Shown here: piece after piece, positions 1-52,549 of the stretch
Position numbering within the stretch: position 1 is the stretch's first letter
Layout of the letters: the number at the start of each line of letters is the position of its first letter
Assembly: GCF_003364295.1 (NCBI RefSeq)
Contig: NZ_NXLO01000001.1
Span: forward strand, 310,001 to 374,000
Reading direction: 5' to 3'
DNA: 64,000 bases
From: Helicobacter sp. MIT 99-5507
Lineage (GTDB): Bacteria > Campylobacterota > Campylobacteria > Campylobacterales > Helicobacteraceae
Notes under the pieces: model-generated
Told to the model about the DNA's origin: nothing
The model's database searches: none
The model's input: the letters and a program-made list of their open reading frames with translations, nothing else
Program-made: the position numbers and the translations under genes

Positions 1-173
1 GCTTTTTTTGCAATATTATAATAACTAAAATATTCTCTTAAAAAATGCACCCCTTCACAAAATAAATCCATAGCATAGATATAATCATTTAGCACGATTC
101 CATCATCATTTAGTTTTAAGGTGATAGGAGAATCTTGTAGCTTAGAAATAAAATATGCTTCTCTATCTTTCAT
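1..173 (-). CDS. thiL: Thiamine-monophosphate kinase, N-terminal part (cut by window edge)
   Basis: Reading leftward from an ATG at 173 gives 57 open codons that run off the window. The peptide has the pattern expected at the start of ThiL: an acidic stretch with NDDG followed by a D-x-F-x-E-G-V-H-F segment (MDLFCEGVHF), which in the AIR-synthase/ThiL fold lies in the Mg-ATP and thiamine-phosphate site. ThiL makes thiamine diphosphate from thiamine monophosphate in the cytoplasm. The start lies 3 nt after the nadC stop, so it is probably the last visible gene of the psd-nadA-nadC transcript. The call rests on a short N-terminus, so another AIR-synthase-like kinase cannot be excluded. Confidence 0.6.
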   Translation of the reverse strand, partial: MKDREAYFISKLQDSPITLKLNDDGIVLNDYIYAMDLFCEGVHFLREYFSYYNIAKK

Positions 174-176
174 AAA

Positions 177-1001
177 TTATGCCATTTTCAAAGACAAATC
201 AATCCAAGTTGCATGATGGATTAAAGAACCAATACTTATTGCATCAACTTTAGTTTTTGCATAATCTAAAATATTTTCTTTTGATATATTTCCACTTGCC
301 TCAAGCAAAATATGTGGATAATATTTATTTCTATGGCTTACAACTTCAATAATATCATTTGGCTTCATATTATCACACATAATAATATCAACACCACACT
401 CCATTGCCTCTTTTGCCATATTTATACAATCGCATTCAATCTCTATTTTTGAAGTCCATGGAATCTTAACCCTAGCTTCTCTTATAAAATCAGCCAAATT
501 TGAAATATGAGATAAATTTGTATCTTTTAACATCAAACAATCATCTAATCCTAAGCGATGATTTCTAGCACCACCATTTAAAACAGAATATTTTTCAAAT
601 TCTCTTAAATTTGGTCTAGTTTTTCTAGTATCCAAAAGAATAGTATTAAATGAATTTTCTTGCAAGATTCTTGTATATGACTTTACATTTGTAGCAATAC
701 CTGAGCTATGTTGCAAAATATTTAACAATGTCCGCTCAATTTTTAATATCCAAAGATATGAGCCACTTATTTCTAGCAAAATATCATATTTATTAAATTC
801 TTCTCCATCATTAAAATAAAATCTAGATTCTAAGCCTACAAGACTAAGCAAAATAGATATATATTTTTTTCCAGAAAATACACCATCATCTTTTGCAAGG
901 ACATTTGCTTTTACTATCTTATCATCACATATTTTAGAAAATAAATCTCCTCTACCTATATCTTCATTTAGCGCATTTTTAATAAATTCTAATTCACTCA
1001 T
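177..1001 (-). CDS. nadC: Nicotinate-nucleotide pyrophosphorylase (quinolinate phosphoribosyltransferase)
   Basis: The 274-residue protein has the usual QPRTase length. It carries the active-site strings DTRKTRP (about residues 124-130) and [12 protein letters not shown] (143-154), with EASGN near residue 230. It converts quinolinate and PRPP to nicotinate mononucleotide in de novo NAD synthesis. Its ATG overlaps the nadA stop by 4 nt (ATGA), so the two are translationally coupled and the quinolinate made by NadA is used by the next enzyme. No oddities were seen. Confidence 0.95.
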
Positions 1002-2005
1002 GATAATTCCAGCATTTTATTTAGTGCTTTTCTTGCATAATGCACGCAATCATGGCTTAGCTCTATTTCATTATAAGGCATTTCATCACTAAAAGATTTC
1101 ATTACATCATATAAATCTTGAATACTTGTCTCATTCATAGTAGGGCATTCTGGCTTACTTGAAGATAGCACAAAAATATTTTCTTTATTTCCATTTTTCT
1201 TTCTTAATCTATTTACAAGATTAAATTCTGTGCCAACTGCTACTTTTGCATTTTCATCTAAATTTGATACAAAAGAAATAATTTGACTTGTAGATCCTAC
1301 AAAATCAGCAGCTCTTACTACACTAGGATCGCATTCTGGGTGTAAAGCGATTATGATATCTTTGTATTTTTCTTTATAAAATTCAATATCGCTAAGGCTA
1401 AAAAGCTGATGAATAGAGCAAAATCCATCATAACAAATTACATCGCTATTTATGATTTCATCATCATTTGAGATTCCAAGTATGGAATATTTTTTACCAC
1501 AATCTATAGCTAGATTTGCCCCAAGGCATCTATCTGGCATAAAAAATATTTTTTTACCAGAATCTAGTGCAAATTGAAAAATTTTTTTTGCATTAGAGCT
1601 AGTGCAAACAACACCACCCATTTCACCAACTTTAGCCTTTATATCAGCATTTGAATTTATATAAGTCATTGGAAAAATATCTTCTTTCTTTATACCTAGA
1701 GTTTGAAGCTTATCAATACTTTTATCAAAATAAGAAGAATCTATCATTCTTGCCATAGAACAACAAGCAAGCCTAGGCATAATTACATTTTTATCAGGAG
1801 ATAATATCTTTACACTCTGCCCCATAAAACTTACACCGCAAAATACTATTAATTTATTTTTAGCACTACTAGCTTTTTTTGCAAGCTCTAGGCTATCGCC
1901 ACAAAAATCTGCTAGCTCTACAACCTCATCTCTTTGATAATAATGTGCCACAATCAAAGCATCTAATTCGTTTTTTAGAGATTTTATTTCATCTTTTAAA
2001 TTCAT
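998..2005 (-). CDS. nadA: Quinolinate synthase A
   Basis: This 335-residue NadA condenses iminoaspartate with dihydroxyacetone phosphate to quinolinate and needs a [4Fe-4S] cluster. Visible family marks are HYYQRDEV at residue 21, the cysteine pair in LACCSMA (81/82), CTSSNA (134), a cysteine in GFCSIH (196), HPECDP (222) and ECPTMNE (Cys287). Cys81 or 82, Cys196 and Cys287 are the likely cluster ligands by position. The gene lies 9 nt downstream of psd and overlaps nadC. I see no nadB in the window. Confidence 0.95.
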
Positions 2006-2014
2006 TTTTTACCT

Positions 2015-2803
2015 TTAAAAATCTTTGCGTTTAAACAAATCAAAACCAAACTTTATATCACAATCACTTTTTAATATTTCTACATCACTAGCAAAAAGTA
2101 CGATGGTAGAGCCCATTTTAAACATACCAATTTCCTCACCTTTTTTAATAAAAAGTGGCTCTTTATATGTAAAACATCTTTTATAGCAATTAGATTTATA
2201 TTGGATTCTTGGTTCAATATAAAAATAAATACCACCAACATTTAATGCACCAACAGCAACAAAATACAAAATTCCACCAAAAGAATCTCTTGCTTTTAAA
2301 ACCACTCTTTCATTTACAACAAAAAGATTCTTATTTTTATAAAGTGATTTTGTATGGACAGGTAAAAGTGCGCCTTTGAAATGAGTTATACTTTCTACAT
2401 ACATATCACAAGGTGCATGATATCTATGATAATTACTTGGACTTAAATACAAATTAGCATAGCTAAGATTTGATGATACTCTCTCCCCTACTAATCTATC
2501 AACTGAATAACTAAATCCTTTTATTTGCAATGCCCTTCCATTGCTGACATCGCCTGTTTGCATTACTTTGCCATCAACTGGAGATATAAAAATATTATCA
2601 TCTATATTAAATTCTCTATTTTGTCTAAGTCCTCTAGTAAATAGCTCATTTAAACTTTTATATGAAGCAAGTGGATAAAACTCACTTAAATCAATCTTAA
2701 AGATTCTAATATATTGCTTATTTATAAATCTCTGTATTGGTGGATAGAATCTAATATTGGCAATAACTCCAAAACAAAGTGAAATTAGTTTTGTAATCTT
2801 CAT
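2015..2803 (-). CDS. psd: Phosphatidylserine decarboxylase proenzyme
   Basis: The 262-residue inner-membrane enzyme makes phosphatidylethanolamine from phosphatidylserine. It has SPVDGKV near residue 72, HRYHAP near 126 and the self-cleavage site MGSTIVLF, whose serine (about residue 232) becomes the pyruvoyl cofactor. Normal PSDs carry LGST, so the Leu-to-Met change here is minor. The gene heads the psd-nadA-nadC group and lies 14 nt after bpt. The order psd-nadA-nadC matches the one I recall from H. pylori. Confidence 0.93.
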   Translation of the reverse strand: MKITKLISLCFGVIANIRFYPPIQRFINKQYIRIFKIDLSEFYPLASYKSLNELFTRGLRQNREFNIDDNIFISPVDGKVMQTGDVSNGRALQIKGFSYSVDRLVGERVSSNLSYANLYLSPSNYHRYHAPCDMYVESITHFKGALLPVHTKSLYKNKNLFVVNERVVLKARDSFGGILYFVAVGALNVGGIYFYIEPRIQYKSNCYKRCFTYKEPLFIKKGEEIGMFKMGSTIVLFASDVEILKSDCDIKFGFDLFKRKDF

Positions 2804-2817
2804 GATTATCCTTTGAA

Positions 2818-3567
2818 TTATCCTTTAGTATGCAATTTCCATATAGGAATCTCATAAATATTTGGACGATTTATTAAATATTCAAATGGTCTAAATCGCT
2901 CTTTATATCCTAAAGAATGATGATTTTCTATCCAATATCCTGGATAAAAATATTTTATATTAAACATTTTAGCAATTTCTAATTGTTTTAAAATTGAAAA
3001 AGTGCCAAGTGAAAGATGTGAATAACTATGATCATAAAAGAAATATATAGCACTCATAGATGAAGTAGTCTTTAAAATATCTACAAAAGCAACACCTATT
3101 AATTTACCATCGAGATAATAACATATCTCTTTTCCAAAGCTATTTTTGCCATCTATAAACATATGTAAATATCTATCTCTATTTATATTATTATATTCCC
3201 AGCCTTTTTTGATATTCATAATAGTATGATATTTATTATAAAGCTCTAGTTTTTCAAGCGAATAAGTGGGGATTCCAAGCACAACATCGATTATTTTATT
3301 TTTACTCATAATGCGTTTATTGTTTTTAGAAAATACAAACTCATCTACAAGCTGTCTTATTGAAACACATTTATTACAATAATCGCAAAATGGAGCAAAA
3401 AAGACTTCTCCAAATCGTCTCCAACCTCGTTCTAGCAATGCATTATAAAAATCTTCACTACAAGATTCTATAAGTGCATAATTAAATGTAGTATCATTGC
3501 CTGAAATATACGCACAATCTCCAAATGAATAATAAAATACAGCGTTTTTATAACAAAACTTATTCAA
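2818..3567 (-). CDS. bpt: Aspartate/glutamate leucyltransferase (Bpt/ATE family)
   Basis: At 249 residues this fits the bacterial Bpt branch of the arginyltransferase (ATE) family, which moves Leu from tRNA onto N-terminal Asp or Glu and so marks proteins for ClpAP-type degradation. The N-terminal half has the family cysteine cluster FCDYCNKC (Cys61, 64, 67). The C-terminal half has the acyl-transfer fold signatures YFFYDHSY, GYWI and KERFRPFE. It sits between hemC and psd with 14-15 nt gaps. The substrate preference (Leu rather than Arg) is inferred from the bacterial branch. Confidence 0.85.
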   Translation of the reverse strand: MNKFCYKNAVFYYSFGDCAYISGNDTTFNYALIESCSEDFYNALLERGWRRFGEVFFAPFCDYCNKCVSIRQLVDEFVFSKNNKRIMSKNKIIDVVLGIPTYSLEKLELYNKYHTIMNIKKGWEYNNINRDRYLHMFIDGKNSFGKEICYYLDGKLIGVAFVDILKTTSSMSAIYFFYDHSYSHLSLGTFSILKQLEIAKMFNIKYFYPGYWIENHHSLGYKERFRPFEYLINRPNIYEIPIWKLHTKG

Positions 3568-3582
3568 GATTCTTCCAAACTA

Positions 3583-4506
3583 TCATATAAAATCTAAAGC
3601 CCTTTTTAATACATCTCTAGCACCTTTTGCTTCTACTTTTTTTAATAATTCACTTGCTAGATTAGAATCTTTACTACCACTTACGCAATCTTTGATGATT
3701 TCTGTTCCATTTGGCAAACCAATAATAGCATTCATAACAATCTTAGAATCCTTATATTTTGCATGCACCCCAATTGGTACTTGACAGCCGCCATCAAGCA
3801 ATCTAATAAACTCTCTTTCAAATCCACACTCAATACTGCTTATCTCGTCATTTAATTTTTGTAAATATGGTAGAATCTCGCAATCTTTTCTACATTCTAT
3901 TCCAAGAGCACCTTGTCCCATCGCAGGAATCATAAACGAAATATCAAGTGGATTTATAAAATTTATATCTTTTGTATCTATATTTAATCGATTTAAACCA
4001 GCTTTAGCAAGGATTATTGCATCAAATTCATTATTTTTTAGTTTTTGAAGTCTTGTTTGGACATTTCCTCTTAAGCTTATAGTATCTAAATCTTCTCTTA
4101 TATATTTTAATTGCATTGAGCGTCTAAGTGAAGTAGTGCCTACTTTTGCATTATATGGGAGATTTGAAATATTGCTAAAATTGTAGCTAATAAAACAATC
4201 TTGCGCATCTTCTCGCTTTGTTATTGCAGCAAGTAATAAATCATTATGCATTACAACAGGAACATCTTTTAGAGAATGAACGGCTAATGTGATAGACTTA
4301 TTAAGTAGCATTTCTTCTAATTCTTTTGTAAATAGACCTTTTCCACCGATTTTTGCAAGTGGAGCATCTAAGATTCTATCACCTGTTGTTTTAATGATTT
4401 TTAATTCAGAATCTAGATTAAATTTCCTTTTTAACTCATCTTTTATAAAGTTAGCTTGCCATAATGCCAATAAACTACCTCTAGTTCCTATTATAATCTT
4501 ATTCAT
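3583..4506 (-). CDS. hemC: Porphobilinogen deaminase (hydroxymethylbilane synthase)
   Basis: This 307-residue enzyme of haem synthesis joins four porphobilinogens into hydroxymethylbilane. The catalytic Asp sits in SLKDVP (Asp81), the substrate-binding arginines in TTSLRRS (about 124-130), and the dipyrromethane-carrying Cys in DGGCQVP (Cys241). I start it at the ATG at 4506, which has AGAAGGA just upstream. A longer frame beginning with TTG at 4521 would add only five residues and bury that ribosome site. A -10 box lies about 45 nt upstream. Confidence 0.95.
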   Translation of the reverse strand: MNKIIIGTRGSLLALWQANFIKDELKRKFNLDSELKIIKTTGDRILDAPLAKIGGKGLFTKELEEMLLNKSITLAVHSLKDVPVVMHNDLLLAAITKREDAQDCFISYNFSNISNLPYNAKVGTTSLRRSMQLKYIREDLDTISLRGNVQTRLQKLKNNEFDAIILAKAGLNRLNIDTKDINFINPLDISFMIPAMGQGALGIECRKDCEILPYLQKLNDEISSIECGFEREFIRLLDGGCQVPIGVHAKYKDSKIVMNAIIGLPNGTEIIKDCVSGSKDSNLASELLKKVEAKGARDVLKRALDFI

Positions 4507-4549
4507 ATATCCTTCTGTCAAAATTTTAATAAAGATTGCTATTTATGTG

Positions 4550-4555
4550 ATTATA
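4550..4555 (-). promoter_or_regulatory. Probable -10 box of the hemC-bpt-psd-nad operon
   Basis: On the minus strand the sequence reads TTGTATAATCAC, a perfect TATAAT about 45 nt before the hemC ATG. This fits the -10-dominated sigma-70 promoters of Campylobacterota. No clear -35 was seen. Confidence 0.5.
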
Positions 4556-4600
4556 CAAAATTATGATATTATTTAACAAAATTAAATTTAAAGAAGAATT

Positions 4601-5400
4601 ATGATTATAGAAAAATACAACACAATAAATGGGCATAAGGTATTTAATACACAAGTGCGAAATGAAGATTATGATTTTAGCGGATTTGTAGAGCTATTTA
4701 ATAATGAAGAAAAACACTTTTGGTTTATCACAAGAAAAGAATTGATTAAAAAAGCAATGAATAAATATATAAACAAAAATGCAAAGATTATTGAGGTAGG
4801 GGCTGGGACAGGAAATGTAACAAAATACCTAATCAAAGATGGATACAAAAATATAAGTGTTGGTGAGATGCATTTAAATGCTTTAGATTATGCTAAAGGC
4901 TATGGCATAGAAGATAGATTCTGTTTTGATTTATTAAAAAGTCCATTTGTAGATGAGTTTGAATGTATTTGTGCTTTTGATGTTATAGAACATATAGAAG
5001 ATGATAATCTTGCTATAAAAAATTTAGAAAAATCCACAATGGGGGGGGGTGGCTTGTTATAAGCATCCCTGCATTCAATTTTTTGTGGAATGAACATGAT
5101 GTAGATGTAGGACATAAAAGACGATATACAAAATCTAGCATAAAAGAATTACTAGAGAAAAATGGATATACAATCAAATATTCAAAATACTTTTTTATCT
5201 CAATAATTCCACTTTTAATACTTAGAGCAATTATTAAAAAACCAAAGAAAAATCATATCCCAAAAGGTGATAAAATCGATCCAATAAGCCCTATTATAAA
5301 TAAGATTCTGATATCCATTTTAAGAATCGAAAACAAAATTATTGATTACCTACCAAATTTCTTTGGTGGAAGCTTGCTTATTATCGCACAAAAAAAGTAA
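4601..5400 (+). CDS. Phase-variable SAM-dependent methyltransferase (frame-shifted, OFF here)
   Basis: The first 153 codons (4601-5062) hold the SAM-binding motif EVGAGTGNV (about residue 66) and an FDVIEH motif IV. A G9 run at 5041-5049 then sends translation into a stop. The rest, in another frame (from TGG at 5050 to 5400), reads WLVISIPAFNFLWNEHD, the usual strand after the conserved GG of class I methyltransferases, and ends with a hydrophobic segment near FFISIIPLLIL. A tract of 7 or 10 G restores one 266-residue protein. With 7 the sequence is GGWLVISIP, the canonical form. The substrate is unknown; a sugar or lipid is likely by analogy with similar genes in the glycan locus. It ends exactly where the convergent nhaA ends. 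Confidence 0.75.
5041..5049 (+). repeat. Poly-G tract, G9
   Basis: Nine G at codons 147-149 of the methyltransferase at 4601. Nine gives a stop 4 codons later; 7 or 10 gives the full protein. Confidence 0.97.
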
Positions 5401-6834
5401 TTATTTTTTTGTAGAAAATAGCAAGGCTATTGTTCCAAAGAAAATAGCAATTGATGAAGCAATCAAAATTGATAATTTTGCAAGCACTATTTGTTCTTCA
5501 CTTCCATATGCAAGATTTGCAACAAACATAGACATTGTAAAGCCTATACCAGAAATTACACCAACTGCAAATATATGTTTATATGAAAGACCTTCAGGAC
5601 GAATTGCAATATTTAGTTTCTCACCCAAAAATGTAAAAATAACAATACCAAGAGGTTTTCCAACAACAAGACCTATAATAGTTCCATATAAAATACCATC
5701 AATATGAAAATTCATATTAGCATCTACTCTTATCCCAGCATTGAAAAATGCAAAAATTGGCACGATAAAATATGCACAAATTGGTTGTAAAAACATCTCC
5801 ATTTTTACAAGAGGATTCTGTGCATATCTAGAATATTTAGCTACAACATCAAGCATATACACCTGCTTACTTGTTTCTTCCATATCAACTTTTTTATATT
5901 CATTTGAAGTAAAAAACCCGATAATACCCTTATAGATTGCTACAAATATATTATCTTGCTTATCTTCTTTTGTATATAAGATTTTTTTACCCTCTAATGT
6001 GGTTGCACTCTTCCACTCTTCTAATATATTTACTACATTAAGAAAATATTTTTTTCTTATATTAGAACGACCTGGAATACAAAATGCAAGAACAATGCCA
6101 GCTATAGTAGCATGAACTCCACTATTATATACTGCTATCCAAAGTAAGATTCCAAGTAAAATATAGCTTGAAATATATTTTGTATCTCTATAATTTAAAT
6201 AAATCAAAATACAAGTGATAAATGCAGCTGTATAAATCCAAAACATACTAATATCATTGGTATATAAAAATGCAATTATTAAAATTGCACCTAAATCATC
6301 AAATATAGCTAATGTAACAAGAAATATTTTTAATATTTGTGGAATCCTTTTTCCAAAAAACAACAAAACACCTAGTGCAAATGCTGTATCCGTGCTCATT
6401 GCTACACCAAAACCATTTACAGATTCTGTGCCCTTATTGAAATAAATATATATTAATATTGGAATTAAGATTCCACCAATTGCTCCAAGTATAGAAAAAG
6501 AGACTTTTTTAAATCCAGCTAACTCTCCATATAATATCTCTCTTTTCATCTCCAACCCAAGCATAAGAAAGAATAATGACATTAATATATCATTGATAAA
6601 ATGTAAAATACTAATCCCAACAAAATTTTGTCCAATAAATCCACCAAATTTGAGTTCTAAAAAATCAAAATATATATGATGATATTTTGAGTTTGCTATA
6701 ACCATAGCAAGTATAATGCATAAAAATAATAATACACCACCAAATGATTCATGATTGATAAATGTATGCAAAGCTCTTTGTAATTTATTTTTTACATATT
6801 TTGTCGTGCTAATATCTTGAATGCTTTCAGTCAT
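5401..6834 (-). CDS. nhaA: Na+/H+ antiporter NhaA (first copy)
   Basis: This is an integral inner-membrane antiporter of 477 residues with about a dozen hydrophobic segments. The ion-binding aspartate pair is in LAIFDDLGAI, and the unwound-helix region STDTAFALG is intact. It differs from the copy at 21617 by an additional hydrophilic loop (around KEDKQDNIF and SNEYKKVDM) in the middle. I chose the ATG at 6834 (MTESIQ), preceded by GGAAAC, over an upstream ATG at 6891 that lacks a ribosome site. Synteny suggests the copy beside yajC is the ancestral one and this is an additional paralogue. Confidence 0.9.
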   Translation of the reverse strand: MTESIQDISTTKYVKNKLQRALHTFINHESFGGVLLFLCIILAMVIANSKYHHIYFDFLELKFGGFIGQNFVGISILHFINDILMSLFFLMLGLEMKREILYGELAGFKKVSFSILGAIGGILIPILIYIYFNKGTESVNGFGVAMSTDTAFALGVLLFFGKRIPQILKIFLVTLAIFDDLGAILIIAFLYTNDISMFWIYTAAFITCILIYLNYRDTKYISSYILLGILLWIAVYNSGVHATIAGIVLAFCIPGRSNIRKKYFLNVVNILEEWKSATTLEGKKILYTKEDKQDNIFVAIYKGIIGFFTSNEYKKVDMEETSKQVYMLDVVAKYSRYAQNPLVKMEMFLQPICAYFIVPIFAFFNAGIRVDANMNFHIDGILYGTIIGLVVGKPLGIVIFTFLGEKLNIAIRPEGLSYKHIFAVGVISGIGFTMSMFVANLAYGSEEQIVLAKLSILIASSIAIFFGTIALLFSTKK

Positions 6835-7020: not shown

Positions 7021-7515
7021 ATGAAAACAATTGGTATATTTTATGGAAGCACAACAGGAAAAACACAAGAAATAGCAGAAGCTATCTCATCAAAACTGCA
7101 AAATTGTGAATTAATTGATGTTGCAAAAGCAAAAAAAGAAGATTTAGCAAAATTTGACAATCTAATACTTGCTGCTTCAACTTATGGTGATGGTGAATTG
7201 CAAACTGATTGGGAAGATTTTGCTGCAAATTTAAGCGAAGATGATTTTGCTCAAAAAACTATAGCTATTGTTGGACTTGGAGATCAAGATTCTTATGGTG
7301 ATACATTTTGCGATTCTATCTTTTTACTAGCAGAATTAGCAAAAAAAGCTACAATTATAGGCAAAACAAAAAATGAAAATTATGACTTTCAAGCATCAAA
7401 AGGGCTAGTTGGAGATGAGTTTTTAGGTCTTGCACTTGATGAAGAAAATCAAAGTGATTTAACAAGCGATAGATTAAATGCATGGATTGATAGCATAAAA
7501 GATAGCTTTAAATAA
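7021..7515 (+). CDS. fldA: Flavodoxin
   Basis: This 164-residue FMN electron carrier has the phosphate-binding loop GSTTGKTQEIA (residues 9-19), the isoalloxazine loops STYGDGELQTDW and GLGDQDSYGDTF, and the length of a long-chain flavodoxin. In Helicobacter flavodoxin accepts electrons from pyruvate:ferredoxin oxidoreductase and is essential (family knowledge). It is the only plus-strand core gene between 5.4 and 35 kb and is expressed alone. Confidence 0.95.
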   Translation: MKTIGIFYGSTTGKTQEIAEAISSKLQNCELIDVAKAKKEDLAKFDNLILAASTYGDGELQTDWEDFAANLSEDDFAQKTIAIVGLGDQDSYGDTFCDSIFLLAELAKKATIIGKTKNENYDFQASKGLVGDEFLGLALDEENQSDLTSDRLNAWIDSIKDSFK

Positions 7516-43921: not shown

Positions 43922-44846
43922 TCATAACACAATCAAATTTTTAGCACTATAAGTAAAACTTGGGCTTATATTTTCTTTATAAATCACATCTCCACTGCCT
44001 AAAAATCCAAGCCAAAAAGAAAGTGTGCTATTTGCTAATATTTTGTGTTTGCAAGATTGCATCAAAACAAAATCAAAAATTACTTTGCTTTCATTATTTA
44101 TGTTTATGACATTACAATCATCATCGATAAAATTTTCTTGCATAAAATCAAAATCATTACCAAATACAAAAAATGAAATATCACTATATTTTTCTCGCAT
44201 GATCTCCATAGCCATTTTATAATAATCCATATCAAGCAATTCATAAATACCTACAAAATCGCCTCTTCTTACATGAATCATACAAGAATTTTTACTAGAT
44301 TTAATCTTTTCATAAATCATATTATTTTTAGAATCTAAATTTATTTTTGGATACAAAGTATTAATAAAAAAATATCTAAAAGGTATAAAATTTGAAAAAT
44401 GCCATAAATATTCACCATAAATATAGATTCTATTCTTTATGTCAAATGATAACTCATATATATTTTTATAATGCAAATGTGGATAAAAAATAATTTTTTG
44501 TTTATTTACTGGATAGAATATTTTCTTTTTAAAACATTTAATATTGATTTTATTTACAAACTTCTTAAATAATAAAAAATAAAAATTCACTTTTAGGATT
44601 TTGCTTAATTCTTTGTTTGTTGTAATGAGCTTTATATTTAAATCAAAATACTTGATTTCTAAATTTCGTGGATTGGTATCTGTATTTTGATATTCTGTGC
44701 AATCTAAATATATATCTTTTTTTGTTATTTCTTTTAATACATGGCAAAAAGCGTAGTGAAATAGCTGATTACCAAGCCCACCTTCTAAAAATACTACAAT
44801 CCTATTTTTATTATATTGCTGCTGCCCCCCCCCTAAATCTAGCCAT
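43922..44846 (-). CDS. futC: Alpha-1,2-fucosyltransferase, GT11 (phase-variable, OFF here)
   Basis: In its full frame this is about 307 residues. It starts at the ATG at 44846 with AAGGAG at 44852-44857, runs into a G tract at codons 5-7, then reads VVFLEGGLGNQLFHYAF and HVRRGDF, the two signature motifs of GT11 alpha-1,2-fucosyltransferases. With nine G the frame ends after MARFRGGAAAI; with 8 or 11 the whole protein is made. In Helicobacter, phase-variable fucosyltransferases change Lewis-type antigens on LPS. The apparent shorter frame from a GTG at 44590 lacks motif I and would not be active. The acceptor is unknown. Confidence 0.85.
44825..44833 (-). repeat. Poly-G tract (C9 on plus), followed by CAGCAGCAA
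   Basis: Codons 5-7 of the fucosyltransferase. Nine = OFF; 8 or 11 = ON. Confidence 0.97.
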
Positions 44847-44935: not shown

Positions 44936-46828
44936 ATGAAAATTTTACATTTAATATCTCAAGATTCTGGTGGAGCAGGAAGAGCAGCGCTAAGACTTCA
45001 CAAAGCATTATTAGAAGAAAATATAGAATCTTTAATGCTAGTGCAAAATAAAAGCACTGATTTAGATAGTGTCTTAAGATTGGCACAAACAAAACCTCAA
45101 AAAATTATGGAAAAACTGCGTCCAGCACTAAGCACAATACCTCTTATGCTATATCCAAAAAGGCATAAAGATATTTTCTCTCCAAATGCACTTAGCAATA
45201 AAACATTGATTAAAAAAATAAATGAAATAAATCCCGATATTTTACATATTCACTGGATTAATAATGGCTTTTTAAATATTAAAGATTTAAAAAAAATAAA
45301 AATACCAATGATATGGAGCTTGCATGATGCTAACGCCTACACAGGCGGTTGCCACTATGTGGCAACCGCCTGTGTAGGCGTTAAAAATCACTGCATGCGA
45401 TGTCCCTTGTTAAAATCAAATTCTAAATACGACCTAAGTTTTTGGACATTTAAAGCAAAAAAGAATACATATAAAAAAATAAATCTTACAATAAATGGAC
45501 TTAGTAGATGGATTGCAAATTGTGCAAAAGATTCTGCTTTGCTAAAAGATAAAACAATAATAAACCTACCAAATCCAATTGATACAAATATTTTTAAACC
45601 AATAAACAAACAAATTGCAAGAGAAATTTTGGGCTTAAATACACAAAAGAAAATAATCACATTTGGGGCAATTGATGCAACAAATACCGATAGAAAAGGT
45701 TATAATGAACTTATAAATGCATTAAAAAAACTAGATAAAAAAAATATAAGATTAATCATATTTGGTGCAAGCCATGGAAAAAACAATGAAGAAAATATAG
45801 AAGGGATTGAGACGATTTATCTAGGACATTTACATGATGATTTGACACTTAGGATTGTATATAGTTTAAGTGATGTAATAGTAGTGCCAAGCAAAGTAGA
45901 ATCTTTTGGACAAGTAGCCCTAGAATCTCTATCTTGTGGCACGCCTGTTGTGGCATTTGATACAAGTGGATTAAGAGATATAATCGATCATAAAAAGAGT
46001 GGCTATCTTGCAAAATGCTATGATGTGGATGACCTAGCAAATGGAATAAAATGGGCAATAGATAATAATTTAGATGACAATCCAAGGCTTAAAGCTATGA
46101 CTTTTGATTCTAAAATCGTGAGTAAAAAATATATAGCACAATATCAAAATATACTAAATGGGGGGGGGTATAAAGAACTCTTACAAGTAATATTCTTTAA
46201 ACAAAACACTCTTTATATTACTTTTGGTGCAATAAGTGGCACAAATGTAGCTAGAAAAGGATATAGCGAGCTAATAGGTGCATTAAAGAAATTAGATTTT
46301 GATTTTTGTCTGCTTGTTTTTGGATCAAGCAGTGGAGAAATACTACAAAATATACCAACTCACTTTTTAGGCTATATAAATGATGATACTACTTTAAATC
46401 TTATATACAATGCAAGTGATATTTTTATCACTCCAAGCTTAGCAGAAAATCTAAGCAATGCAATAATGGAATCTCTATCTTGTGGCACGCCTGTTGTGGC
46501 ATTTGATATAGGTGGCAATAGTGATATGATAGATCATAAAAAGAATGGCTATCTTGCAAAAGAAAATGATATAGATGACCTAGCAAATGGAATAAAATGG
46601 GCAATAGATAATAAAGACATCCTCTCACAAAATGCAATAAAGAAGATAAAAGAAAATTTTAAATCAAATTTAGTAGCAAAAAAATATATAGCACAATATC
46701 AAAATATACTTAATGGGGGGGGGGAACTAGCATATAGCAATTTTGCTATTTTTTATATCCTTCCAAATCATACTACAACAAACCACAATAAATACAAAAA
46801 TCTAACAATCTTACCTAAGGTGGCATAA
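44936..46828 (+). CDS. GT4 glycosyltransferase with a duplicated C-terminal domain and two poly-G tracts
   Basis: 630 residues from the ATG at 44936 (GGAG upstream). Residues 1-408 are a complete GT-B/GT4 enzyme: SGGAGRAALRLHKAL, SLHDANAYTGGCHY, and the donor-site ESFGQVALE. A G9 tract follows, then residues 420-593 repeat the C-terminal domain (AISGTNVARKGYSEL, AENLSNAIMESLSCGTP) and end, like the first, with KKYIAQYQNILN plus a G tract (G10). Such enzymes use nucleotide sugars at the cytoplasmic membrane face. At either tract most one-base changes end the protein within a few codons. The second domain lacks an acceptor half and is unlikely to act alone. Confidence 0.8.
   Translation: MKILHLISQDSGGAGRAALRLHKALLEENIESLMLVQNKSTDLDSVLRLAQTKPQKIMEKLRPALSTIPLMLYPKRHKDIFSPNALSNKTLIKKINEINPDILHIHWINNGFLNIKDLKKIKIPMIWSLHDANAYTGGCHYVATACVGVKNHCMRCPLLKSNSKYDLSFWTFKAKKNTYKKINLTINGLSRWIANCAKDSALLKDKTIINLPNPIDTNIFKPINKQIAREILGLNTQKKIITFGAIDATNTDRKGYNELINALKKLDKKNIRLIIFGASHGKNNEENIEGIETIYLGHLHDDLTLRIVYSLSDVIVVPSKVESFGQVALESLSCGTPVVAFDTSGLRDIIDHKKSGYLAKCYDVDDLANGIKWAIDNNLDDNPRLKAMTFDSKIVSKKYIAQYQNILNGGGYKELLQVIFFKQNTLYITFGAISGTNVARKGYSELIGALKKLDFDFCLLVFGSSSGEILQNIPTHFLGYINDDTTLNLIYNASDIFITPSLAENLSNAIMESLSCGTPVVAFDIGGNSDMIDHKKNGYLAKENDIDDLANGIKWAIDNKDILSQNAIKKIKENFKSNLVAKKYIAQYQNILNGGGELAYSNFAIFYILPNHTTTNHNKYKNLTILPKVA
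45331..45383. repeat. Long perfect palindrome inside the GT4 gene
   Basis: 25-bp arms (45331-45355 and 45359-45383) around TAT, GC-rich for this genome. The left arm encodes the conserved TGGCH part of the enzyme; the right arm is its inverted copy and reads VATACVGV without breaking the frame. Confidence 0.95.
46160..46168 (+). repeat. Poly-G tract, G9 (first in the double GT4)
   Basis: Codons 409-411. Nine reads on as GGGYKELL; ten meets TAA two codons after the run; eight ends after about eight further codons. Confidence 0.97.
46715..46724 (+). repeat. Poly-G tract, G10 (second in the double GT4)
   Basis: Codons 594-597. Ten keeps the frame open to 46828; nine gives AAC TAG and eleven gives a TAG three codons on, both before the hairpin at 46734. 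Confidence 0.97.
46734..46754 (+). terminator. Possible intrinsic terminator inside the GT4 3' end
   Basis: ATAGCA and TGCTAT pair around a 4-nt loop, followed by six T (46749-46754). It is a weak AU-rich stem. It is covered by translating ribosomes only when the tract at 46715 is G10. Confidence 0.4.
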
Positions 46829-46829
46829 G

Positions 46830-48014
46830 ATGAGTGCCATCAAATCTATATTAAAAAAAATACGCGACTTATATATATCTATATTTGCAAATATCACTTT
46901 TAAAAAATCACGATGTATTAAAGATTCAATGATTATTTTACGAAGTGATGCAATCGGTGATTATTTGCTTTTTCGTAATTTTTTAAAAGAAATAAGAGAT
47001 GTCTATCCAAAATACAATATCACACTTATAGGAAATATTGCTTGGAAACAATTAGCTATACATTTTGATAAAGAAATCATAGATAATTTTATTTTTTTCA
47101 ATCCAAAAAAACTCACAAAAAATCCACTTTATGCTACGCAATTTTTACGCACTCTAAAAAATAATAAATACGATATTTTTATTAATGCAGTGCATTCAAG
47201 AGATGCTATAAACTTTTTGTTATCAAAATATATAAATGCAAGTTTATGCATTGCTCCACAAGGAGATTATATTAATACCACTCAAAATGCTAAAGCTAAA
47301 AATGACAGAATCTATACAAAAATCTATCCTAGTAAAAAAGAAATTTTATTTGAGTTTTATAGAAATATGGAGTTTTTTCAAAACTTTTTAAATAAAAAAT
47401 TAGAGACAAAATTAGAGCTAGATTCTACTAATTTAGCTTTTAAATATATTCAAGACAAATTTAAATTACAAACTCCATATAGCGTCCTTTTTATTGGTGC
47501 AAGCACCTCTTTTCGCAAATGGAATATAGAATCCTTTGGGGAAGTAGGAATACATTTGATAAAAAAATATCAACAAAATATCGCTATTTGCGGTGGAATT
47601 GATGATAAAGAAAATGCAAATATATTACAAAAGATAATAGAATCTAAAGAATCTAGCAAACAAATATATAATCTAGCTGGGGCTACAAGTCTCTTAGAGC
47701 TTGCAAGAATCGTGTATAATGGCAACCACTTGATCTCAAATGAAACAAGTTGTGCTCATTTAGGAGCTATATTAGACACGACGAATGTTTTCGTCGTGTC
47801 TAATGGCAACCACCTAGGCAGATTTATCCCTTATCCAAATGAGCTAAGGGATAAATACTACCCGGTGTTTCACCATTTTATAAAAAACAATTTCGATAAA
47901 TATGAAGAACTAAGCAATACATATGCCTACAAAAGCACACTAGATATAAATGAAATTACAGCACAAGATGTAATTAAAATTATTGATTTAACTTTACAAA
48001 AGGAGAAAAAATGA
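46830..48014 (+). CDS. GT9 family (heptosyltransferase-like) glycosyltransferase
   Basis: The 394-residue GT-B enzyme of the ADP-heptose:LPS heptosyltransferase family starts with ILRSDAIGDYLLFRNFL (about 31), has LFIGASTSFRKW mid-way and the C-terminal ISNETSCAHLGA plus VVSNGNHLGRF. It adds a sugar to a lipid-linked or LPS acceptor; the donor is not predictable. The ATG starts 1 nt after the preceding stop codon and its end overlaps the next gene by 4 nt. Confidence 0.85.
   Translation: MSAIKSILKKIRDLYISIFANITFKKSRCIKDSMIILRSDAIGDYLLFRNFLKEIRDVYPKYNITLIGNIAWKQLAIHFDKEIIDNFIFFNPKKLTKNPLYATQFLRTLKNNKYDIFINAVHSRDAINFLLSKYINASLCIAPQGDYINTTQNAKAKNDRIYTKIYPSKKEILFEFYRNMEFFQNFLNKKLETKLELDSTNLAFKYIQDKFKLQTPYSVLFIGASTSFRKWNIESFGEVGIHLIKKYQQNIAICGGIDDKENANILQKIIESKESSKQIYNLAGATSLLELARIVYNGNHLISNETSCAHLGAILDTTNVFVVSNGNHLGRFIPYPNELRDKYYPVFHHFIKNNFDKYEELSNTYAYKSTLDINEITAQDVIKIIDLTLQKEKK
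47771..47804. repeat. Perfect palindrome inside the GT9 gene
   Basis: 15-bp arms ATTAGACACGACGAA / TTCGTCGTGTCTAAT around TGTT. The encoded ILDTTNVFVVSN matches the expected strand before SNGNH. A 13-bp direct repeat TAATGGCAACCAC occurs at 47718 and 47801. Confidence 0.93.
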
Positions 48015-48733
48015 CAGATTATTTTGAAGCAAGAGGAGTAAAGGCTGAATTTTACAAAGATGCAAAATTGCCTGCTTACTACAAAGAAGTATTAGAGGGA
48101 CTTCCTCATGATGCAAGGATTTTAGATTTTGGTTGTGGATTTGGACAAAATTTATTTGCAATTAAAAATCATAATTTTACATGGCAAATGGGGGGGGGGA
48201 ATAGAGATTTTAGGCTTGTTGGTATTGATATAAATCCCAATGCAATAAATTTTGTAAAAAGTTTAGATATAGAATCTTTTTTGATAGAAGATATTTTTAC
48301 ATTTAAACCAAAAGAGAAATTTGATTTAATTATCACTACTCATGTGCTTGAACACTTAACAAAAAATAAGCTCATAGATATATTAAAACATTTTAGAGAA
48401 TCTGTGCTTAAAGAAAATGGTGCTATTTTTGTTGCTGTGCCAAATGCACAAAGTTTTACTGGCTGTTATTGGGCTTATGAGGATTTTACGCATAATACTT
48501 TATTTACAGCTGGAAGTCTTATATATGTGCTAAAAATGGCTGGATTTAAAAATATCAATATCATTGACAAAGACGCTCTAGCTGGAAGTAAAGGTATAAA
48601 AAAGTGGATTAAAAAGGTATTTTTAAAAATATATACCTTTCATATAAAATTTTGGTGCAAGATGACAAACTCTGCATTTCACGCACCAAGCCCACAAGTA
48701 TTTAGCTATGAAATAAAAGCATTAGCAAATTAA
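48011..48733 (+). CDS. SAM-dependent methyltransferase (phase-variable, ON)
   Basis: 240 residues with motif I ILDFGCGFGQNLF (about 37-49), acidic motif II LVGIDINP, and TTHVLEHL. A G10 tract (codons 60-63) inserts MGGGNRDF between the first helix and the second strand of the Rossmann fold and is in frame. It overlaps the GT9 gene by 4 nt. It probably methylates a sugar or a lipid-linked glycan; the target is unknown. Confidence 0.8.
   Translation: MTDYFEARGVKAEFYKDAKLPAYYKEVLEGLPHDARILDFGCGFGQNLFAIKNHNFTWQMGGGNRDFRLVGIDINPNAINFVKSLDIESFLIEDIFTFKPKEKFDLIITTHVLEHLTKNKLIDILKHFRESVLKENGAIFVAVPNAQSFTGCYWAYEDFTHNTLFTAGSLIYVLKMAGFKNINIIDKDALAGSKGIKKWIKKVFLKIYTFHIKFWCKMTNSAFHAPSPQVFSYEIKALAN
48190..48199 (+). 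repeat. Poly-G tract, G10
   Basis: In the methyltransferase at 48011, read as MGGGN; open with 10. Confidence 0.97.
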
Positions 48734-51626: not shown

Positions 51627-52549
51627 ATCCTCCTAAAATATCAATTATCATCCCTGTGTATAATGTAGAAAAATACATATCTCGTTGCCTTGAATCTTGT
51701 ATAAATCAAAGTTTTAGTGATATTGAGATTTTATTAATTGATGATTGTGGAAATGACAATAGCATATCTATTGCAAAATCTTTTGCAAAAAAAGACTGCA
51801 GGATTAGAATCATCAAAAATGAAAAAAATCTAGGCACTTTTAATTCAAGAATAAAAGGCATAGAAAATGCAAAAGGAATATATTTATTATTTTTAGATGC
51901 AGATGATTATATAGAATATAATACTTGCAAAAAAGCCTATGACAAAGCATTAAATGGAAATAATACAAAAGAGCAAATAAAAGAGGATAAATTACCAGAT
52001 ATTGTATTTTTTGGTATGAGATTCTATCCACCAACAATAAAAAAAGTAGCACCTCCAGTATTGATAGATGAGCTGCATAATGAGGAGATTTTAAAAGCCT
52101 CTTTCGCCCATTGTGCCACACCTCCGTGGCACATATGTGCGAAGCTTTATAAAGCTTCGCACATTAGTAAAACGATAAATTTACTCCTAGCACATATGGG
52201 CGAATTTCCGCGTCTAAATATGGCAGAAGACGCACTAAAAAGCTTTGCAATACTTGCTTTAGCAAATAAATCTATTGGCATAAAAGATAAATTATACATA
52301 TATTGCAATAATCAATCATCAATAACAAGAAGAATAGATGAAAAATCAATACGAAAAAAAATAAATGATTTTGATAAGGTGCTAGATTATTTAGATAGAT
52401 TTGGTGAAATAAAAGAAATAAGAGAAAACAAATATTTCAAACAAACAAAAGATAGGACAAAAAATATATTAAAAGCCCAAAGAGAATTAGAATTAAGATA
52501 TTTACCTAAAGATGTAGCTCACGCTATTGTAGGGGGGGGGGAATTATAG
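51623..52549 (+). CDS. GT2 glycosyltransferase (second of the pair) with a poly-G C-terminus
   Basis: 308 residues from TTG 51623. The GT2 domain (ISIIIPVYNVEKYI, LDADDYIEYNTC) is followed by an acceptor region with KLYKASHI and MAEDALKSFAILA. The G10 tract at codons 304-306 ends it as GGGEL and the stop TAG directly abuts the next ATG. With G9 the frame would run on as NYRCPPLIPQYLNAAIKSL and KWQTYVRILAY to 52673 (349 residues), which looks like a genuine GT2 tail. Confidence 0.8.
   Translation: MNPPKISIIIPVYNVEKYISRCLESCINQSFSDIEILLIDDCGNDNSISIAKSFAKKDCRIRIIKNEKNLGTFNSRIKGIENAKGIYLLFLDADDYIEYNTCKKAYDKALNGNNTKEQIKEDKLPDIVFFGMRFYPPTIKKVAPPVLIDELHNEEILKASFAHCATPPWHICAKLYKASHISKTINLLLAHMGEFPRLNMAEDALKSFAILALANKSIGIKDKLYIYCNNQSSITRRIDEKSIRKKINDFDKVLDYLDRFGEIKEIRENKYFKQTKDRTKNILKAQRELELRYLPKDVAHAIVGGGEL
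51638..51834 (+). repeat. 197-bp exact direct repeat, copy 2
   Basis: Second copy of 51252-51448. Recombination between the copies would delete 386 bp together with the tract at 51606. Confidence 0.95.
52103..52204. repeat. Nested palindromes inside the GT2 gene
   Basis: A perfect 30-bp palindrome without loop at 52135-52164 (half ATGTGCGAAGCTTTA), a hairpin TGTGCCAC / GTGGCACA at 52112-52133, and outer 9-bp arms TTCGCCCAT / ATGGGCGAA at 52103 and 52196. The reading frame stays open and KLYKAS is the conserved family motif. Confidence 0.93.
52532..52541 (+). repeat. Poly-G tract, G10, at the 3' end of a GT2 gene
   Basis: Ten stops 6 bases later, against the next ATG; nine extends the protein 41 residues into the next gene. 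Confidence 0.97.

Follow-up and report, generated by a model that had tools for sequence, protein, structure and literature searches.

C-terminal phase variation has been proposed for Helicobacter canadensis, in which Snyder et al. (2010) listed eight genes (HCAN_0165, 0641, 0643, 0653, 0660, 0665, 0914, and 1332) with a poly-G tract at the 3′ end (PMC2823697). In the available sections of that paper, the three frames following a tract are given as, e.g., 5/1/50, 1/35/2, or 2/0/16 residues, and the effect is taken to be either an altered C-terminus or fusion to the following gene; one fusion apart, these sections mention no link to the start of the next gene (PMC2823697). A similar class of C-terminal phase variation is described for Neisseria gonorrhoeae (PMC5320596). 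In another Helicobacter system, the sRNA RepG and the tlpB G-repeat of H. pylori control the co-transcribed glycosyltransferase gene hp0102; this control acts at the 5′ leader, is sRNA-mediated and graded, and was judged by the authors unlikely to involve direct translational coupling (PMC8295292).

The locus analyzed here shares with the H. canadensis genes, as far as the available sections describe them, the bacterial family, the 3′-end poly-G tract, and the combination of two short frames with one long frame. In contrast, our long frame stops right where the next gene begins, the tail it encodes is weakly constrained, and the proposed target is the downstream gene. With RepG/tlpB it has in common a variable G-repeat upstream of a co-transcribed glycosyltransferase gene, but the 5′ leader and graded sRNA control of that system differ from the frame-dependent 3′ tract found here.

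In classical polarity and translational coupling, a stop codon lies on or beside the next start, and the C-rich RNA behind an early stop is left untranslated. Both features recur at our locus, where, unlike in the classical cases, a hypermutable tract moves the stop and a tail that does not look functional is kept open for it. In Neisseria meningitidis, slippage in the siaD poly-C tract reportedly (Lavitola and colleagues, 1999) creates an early stop, followed by premature intracistronic transcription termination of the Rho type further downstream. The same chain of slippage, early stop, and premature termination would operate here, but whereas the siaD tract is part of the very gene it turns off, ours lies past a finished enzyme, is followed by a dedicated bridging tail, and would act on the next gene. 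Within the open-access literature we found only papers on C-terminal variation and no description of a 3′ tract that switches the following gene.

A GT4 gene with two poly-G tracts

Our window, a stretch of 64,000 nt from Helicobacter sp. MIT 99-5507, is rich in poly-G: runs of at least eight G give 40 overlapping matches compared to 0.03 expected, which is far above chance, as phase variation by homopolymer slippage requires. The genome as a whole carries 93 tracts of at least nine G. Two tracts are located in a GT4 glycosyltransferase gene that precedes a GT9 gene (Table 1) and whose first part (44936-46159) has a 78% identical ortholog in G003. The combination of G9 in tract 1 and G10 in tract 2 yields a single ORF from an alternative start farther upstream (44906) to 46828, and its TAA (46826-46828) lies one base ahead of the GT9 ATG (46830). 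GT9 in turn overlaps a methyltransferase gene by ATGA at 48011. Tract 2 is assembled as G10, i.e., at its read-through (ON) length.

Both GT4 C-domain matches end ahead of their tract (Pfam), so that the enzyme would be made in all three states of tract 2. The initial annotation had claimed that ten G at 46715 hold the double-GT4 frame open to 1 nt before the GT9 start, and the sequence confirms this. It had also placed the stops of the other two states before 46740 and upstream of a stem. Both stops indeed end before that position (at 46730 and 46737), 6-13 nt past tract 2, but the one used at G11 falls within the 5′ stem arm (46734-46739).

Tract 1 appears to gate c2, a GT4 C-domain without an N-domain (46160-46714). 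A change to G8 or G10 leads to stops 22 or 5 nt past this tract, and the tract 1 off states would leave both c2 and the tail untranslated. The order c1, tract, c2, tract is also present in other genera, and in several of them CAGTAGATAA directly 3′ of tract 1 provides immediate stops in both other frames.

Table 1. Positions of the GT4-GT9 features in the window, with the basis of each assignment.
Feature	Position	Strand	Basis or remark
GT4 glycosyltransferase N-terminal domain and first catalytic C-domain (c1)	44936..46159	+	Pfam Glycos_transf_1 1.2e-54, two stretches
Poly-G tract 1 (G9)	46160..46168	+	nine G; c2 in frame at G9
Second GT4 C-domain (c2), without own N-domain	46169..46714	+	Pfam Glycos_transf_1 8.2e-25
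Poly-G tract 2 (G10), proposed next-gene switch	46715..46724	+	ten G
Bridging tail, translated in the G10 state only, ending in TAA one base before the GT9 ATG	46725..46828	+	frames
TAG stop codon of the G9 state	46728..46730	+	
Weak 6-bp hairpin with T-run, not conserved as a terminator	46734..46754	+	ATAGCA-ATTT-TGCTAT, then five T
TAG stop codon of the G8/G11 state	46735..46737	+	inside the 5′ arm of the stem
C-rich, G-free, rut-like 73-nt stretch (18 C), proposed Rho-loading segment if untranslated	46746..46818	+	counted from the sequence
AAGG, Shine-Dalgarno-like, for GT9, within the tail	46817..46820	+	sequence
GT9 (heptosyltransferase-family) gene, proposed switched target	46830..48014	+	Pfam Glyco_transf_9 1.5e-14

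The GT4 coding sequence also contains a perfect 25-nt inverted repeat with a 3-nt spacer (AYTGGCHYVATACVGV, 45331-45383). Opposite-strand tblastn matches at the same place in several relatives (L059, L060, L062, and L078) suggest that this repeat recurs, and contigs of G001 break at it (L003, L012). A second near-palindrome, GACACGACGAATG / TTTTCGTCGTGTC, is located within the GT9 gene (47775-47806) and adjoins a repeated TGGCAACCAC motif. The methyltransferase gene behind GT9 has an early G10 tract of its own at 48190 (region 48011-48199). On the other side of the locus, nine C (44825-44833), a poly-G tract on the minus strand, lie near the start of a minus-strand gene (ORF listed from 44590 down to 43922) that resembles an ordinary 5′ phase-variable gene.

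Frames behind the tract in related loci

Of the 121 family genomes that were searched, 43 contained relatives of the GT4 C-domain. Our analysis covered 23 loci in which the last C-domain is followed by a tract, representing seven genera with one assembly per species. Many relatives share the order N-domain, C-domain 1, poly-G, C-domain 2, poly-G, next gene. In each of the 23 loci, one phase of the tract stays open for another 78-407 nt, up to where the next gene starts. The stop of this phase adjoins or overlaps the next start, as in translationally coupled genes, at a distance of at most 20 nt in 22 of the 23 loci compared to 4.4 expected from dinucleotide shuffles of the spacers, and of at most 25 nt in all of them; next-gene starts were set by ORF and ambiguous ones by eye, which brings some bias into these counts. 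Arrangements include TAATG, ATGA, and GTG..TAA, and the downstream genes are of several different kinds. In 20/23 loci (7.8 expected), the remaining two phases each meet a stop within 30 nt, and the stop-start match and the early stops occur jointly in 20/23 (0.9 expected). With the sample reduced to a single locus per genus, the chance values for the stop-start match still multiply to ~1e-6, a hand-computed figure to be read with the shared descent of the 23 loci in mind. With the relatives counted, this arrangement of frames far exceeds chance, a significance that a single locus could not show.

The matches to catalytic domains in the relatives end at or before the tract, and a Shine-Dalgarno-like motif is kept by 22 of the 23 downstream genes. 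More of the assembled tracts are in the read-through phase (14/23) than the one third expected (p 0.006), while nine have off lengths. Fusion of GT4 in frame to the next gene was rejected as a candidate function: in none of the 23 loci does a long frame cross the next gene, and the frame instead ends near its start. That tract length would switch the downstream gene and spare its own enzyme is well supported by this comparison. The corresponding proposal of the initial annotation holds with regard to the intact enzyme and the layout, which is conserved in 23 loci, but not with regard to the hairpin as the means of switching (see below).

A proposed gate, and competing explanations

We propose that tract 2 is a phase-variable gate, which delivers ribosomes to GT9 at G10 and leads to Rho polarity at other lengths, and we consider this model probable. 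Slippage at the tract, which is located past the last domain of the enzyme, would set the phase at random. At the permissive length (G10, modulo 3), ribosomes would read a dispensable tail and terminate atop the GT9 start, so that the mRNA stays covered and the ribosomes could reinitiate at GT9. At the other two lengths, they would stop shortly behind the tract and leave a C-rich, G-poor spacer naked; Rho would then most likely load and terminate transcription, and GT9 and the genes behind it would be turned down while GT4 is still made. The direct basis of this model consists of the frames and stops, the conserved layout, a relaxed tail, a composition bias, and the presence of rho. Points against it include the frequency of overlapping gene pairs in compact genomes and the Shine-Dalgarno-like motifs of the downstream genes, which would allow independent initiation if mRNA is present.

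The composition of the spacers bears on how the downstream gene would be kept off. Their mean GC skew is −0.385 (23 loci); the corresponding values are −0.004 for the coding sequence upstream, −0.147 for the gene downstream, and +0.106 and −0.022 for two sets of control intergenic spacers (p ~8e-9 against all controls). Per base, the spacers are less structured than the upstream coding sequence. Compared with shuffles of their own composition, they fold no weaker and no better (mean z −0.17), so that their low structure follows from composition; strong spacer structure as a switch was dropped on the same grounds. An early stop would bare RNA that is C-rich, G-poor, and little structured, as expected for Rho polarity, since Rho prefers unstructured pyrimidine-rich RNA left bare by ribosomes (PMC12121999). 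Rho itself is encoded (PF07497, 105 bits in G000). From the C-rich, G-poor spacers together with an encoded Rho, we favor, by inference, Rho-dependent polarity in the off phase and termination-reinitiation in the on phase.

Translational coupling could also act alone, in which case GT9 translation would depend entirely on ribosomes ending at its start codon while the mRNA level stays constant. The overlap of stop and start in nearly all loci is typical of coupled genes, but the downstream Shine-Dalgarno-like motifs and the weakly structured spacers present no obvious block to independent initiation, and the bias of C over G is left unexplained. Coupling without polarity is thus a doubtful explanation, if one worth keeping in mind.

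Another explanation is that the tract swaps the last residues of GT4 between functionally different variants. With its 3′-terminal poly-G tract and three alternative C-termini, GT4 has the same anatomy as the class of Snyder et al., as the available sections present it (PMC2823697), and in the closest pair, G000/G002, the tail shows some constraint (dN/dS 0.29). However, tails are non-homologous between genera and near-neutral as protein in most pairs, and yet they end on the next start, whereas a functional peptide would be expected to keep its sequence rather than its end point. In six of seven related pairs, dN/dS of the tail is 0.55-0.99 compared to 0.10-0.28 for the adjoining genes, although the individual tail values are rough owing to short codon alignments (30-46 codons). 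Differences between the tails of related pairs are distributed across codon positions, and gaps in the best-aligned, closest pairs are mostly multiples of three. An open frame and an end point that are kept while the peptide drifts are expected for ribosome delivery to the next start and not for a C-terminal peptide. Selection thus appears to act on bringing ribosomes to the next gene rather than on the C-terminal peptide, and we regard a function of the C-terminal residues as unlikely. The gate model would revise the idea of C-terminal phase variation put forward for H. canadensis.

The initial annotation had assigned the switch to the hairpin behind the tract, which would be blocked by ribosomes at G10 and free to terminate transcription otherwise. 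A stem followed by five T is indeed present in the right place, but it contains only two G-C pairs (−4.9 kcal/mol, z −1.88) and lacks the stable G+C-rich stem followed by a U-run of an intrinsic terminator; a terminator scan gave no call for 46734-46754. Equally loose stem-plus-T sites are near background in AT-rich sequence: the plus strand of the window has 52, and mononucleotide shuffles give 31. G002, the nearest relative, keeps the stem but has AAATTC in place of the T-run, and nothing comparable was found in the other 22 spacers except for one marginal match (G054). Moreover, a ribosome at either off-state stop would still overlay part of the 5′ arm. Intrinsic termination was therefore dropped as a general mechanism and is very improbable even at this locus. 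We do not regard the hairpin as the working part, and the C-rich spacer is the likelier off-state element.

Mere coincidence, i.e., open frames in AT-rich compact operons with a tract tolerated at the gene end, is hardly credible: such genomes often have starts and stops that overlap, and the shuffle-derived chance at a single locus is often 0.04-0.45, but the counts across the relatives far exceed expectation for the stop-start match and for both features jointly, the layout recurs in a survey of three genomes, and the composition bias would go unexplained.

3′-end tracts beyond the GT4 loci

This survey covered all 93 tracts of at least nine G of this genome and the tract clusters of two more complete genomes, which were classified by script; the sample consists of stretches around tracts and includes the GT4 loci of these genomes. 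Forty of the tracts sit 3′-terminally in a long ORF and have another gene at most 330 nt away. The long phase ends within 20 nt of the next start at 24 of them (6.9 expected), and 14 combine this with two early stops (2.5 expected). The remaining 16/40 are uncoupled, which counts against the gate model. The layout is also found behind other genes, e.g., in G001, where GT9 itself ends in this way.

Several further arrangements were observed. In L093 (7228-18743; G000:C1, about 400.6-412.2 kb), consecutive genes include several that end in poly-G with a long phase reaching the next start; tracts of this type at 7228, 15427, 16234, and 18743 are a possible chain of gates. In our window, a tract at 52532-52549 ends 8 nt ahead of the next ATG (52550), so that tract length alters the overlap with the next gene, and the survey contains several similar near-zero spacers. 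With regard to the flaG case published for H. canadensis, the flaG loci (PF03646) of 50 relatives (30 + 20) showed no G or C run of at least eight near flaG.

Poly-G tracts of this 3′-terminal kind, followed by open tails, may constitute a general class of gate in glycan operons of the Helicobacteraceae, a possibility that we rate as evenly balanced. In such a class, the gene carrying the tract would work, the genes behind it would be expressed stochastically, and a chain of gates would set how far expression reaches into the operon.

Phase-variable genes are usually scored by whether a tract breaks the gene that holds it. Tracts of the kind described here would then pass for harmless or for C-terminal variants, whereas under the gate model they control the gene or genes that follow. 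If this is true, published catalogues of phase variation in these bacteria put some switches on the wrong gene, and predictions of surface-glycan states would have to be based on tract phase throughout the operon. Such loci would also offer a natural, quantized test of polarity, in which one base alters the amount of untranslated RNA and leaves the enzyme domains untouched.
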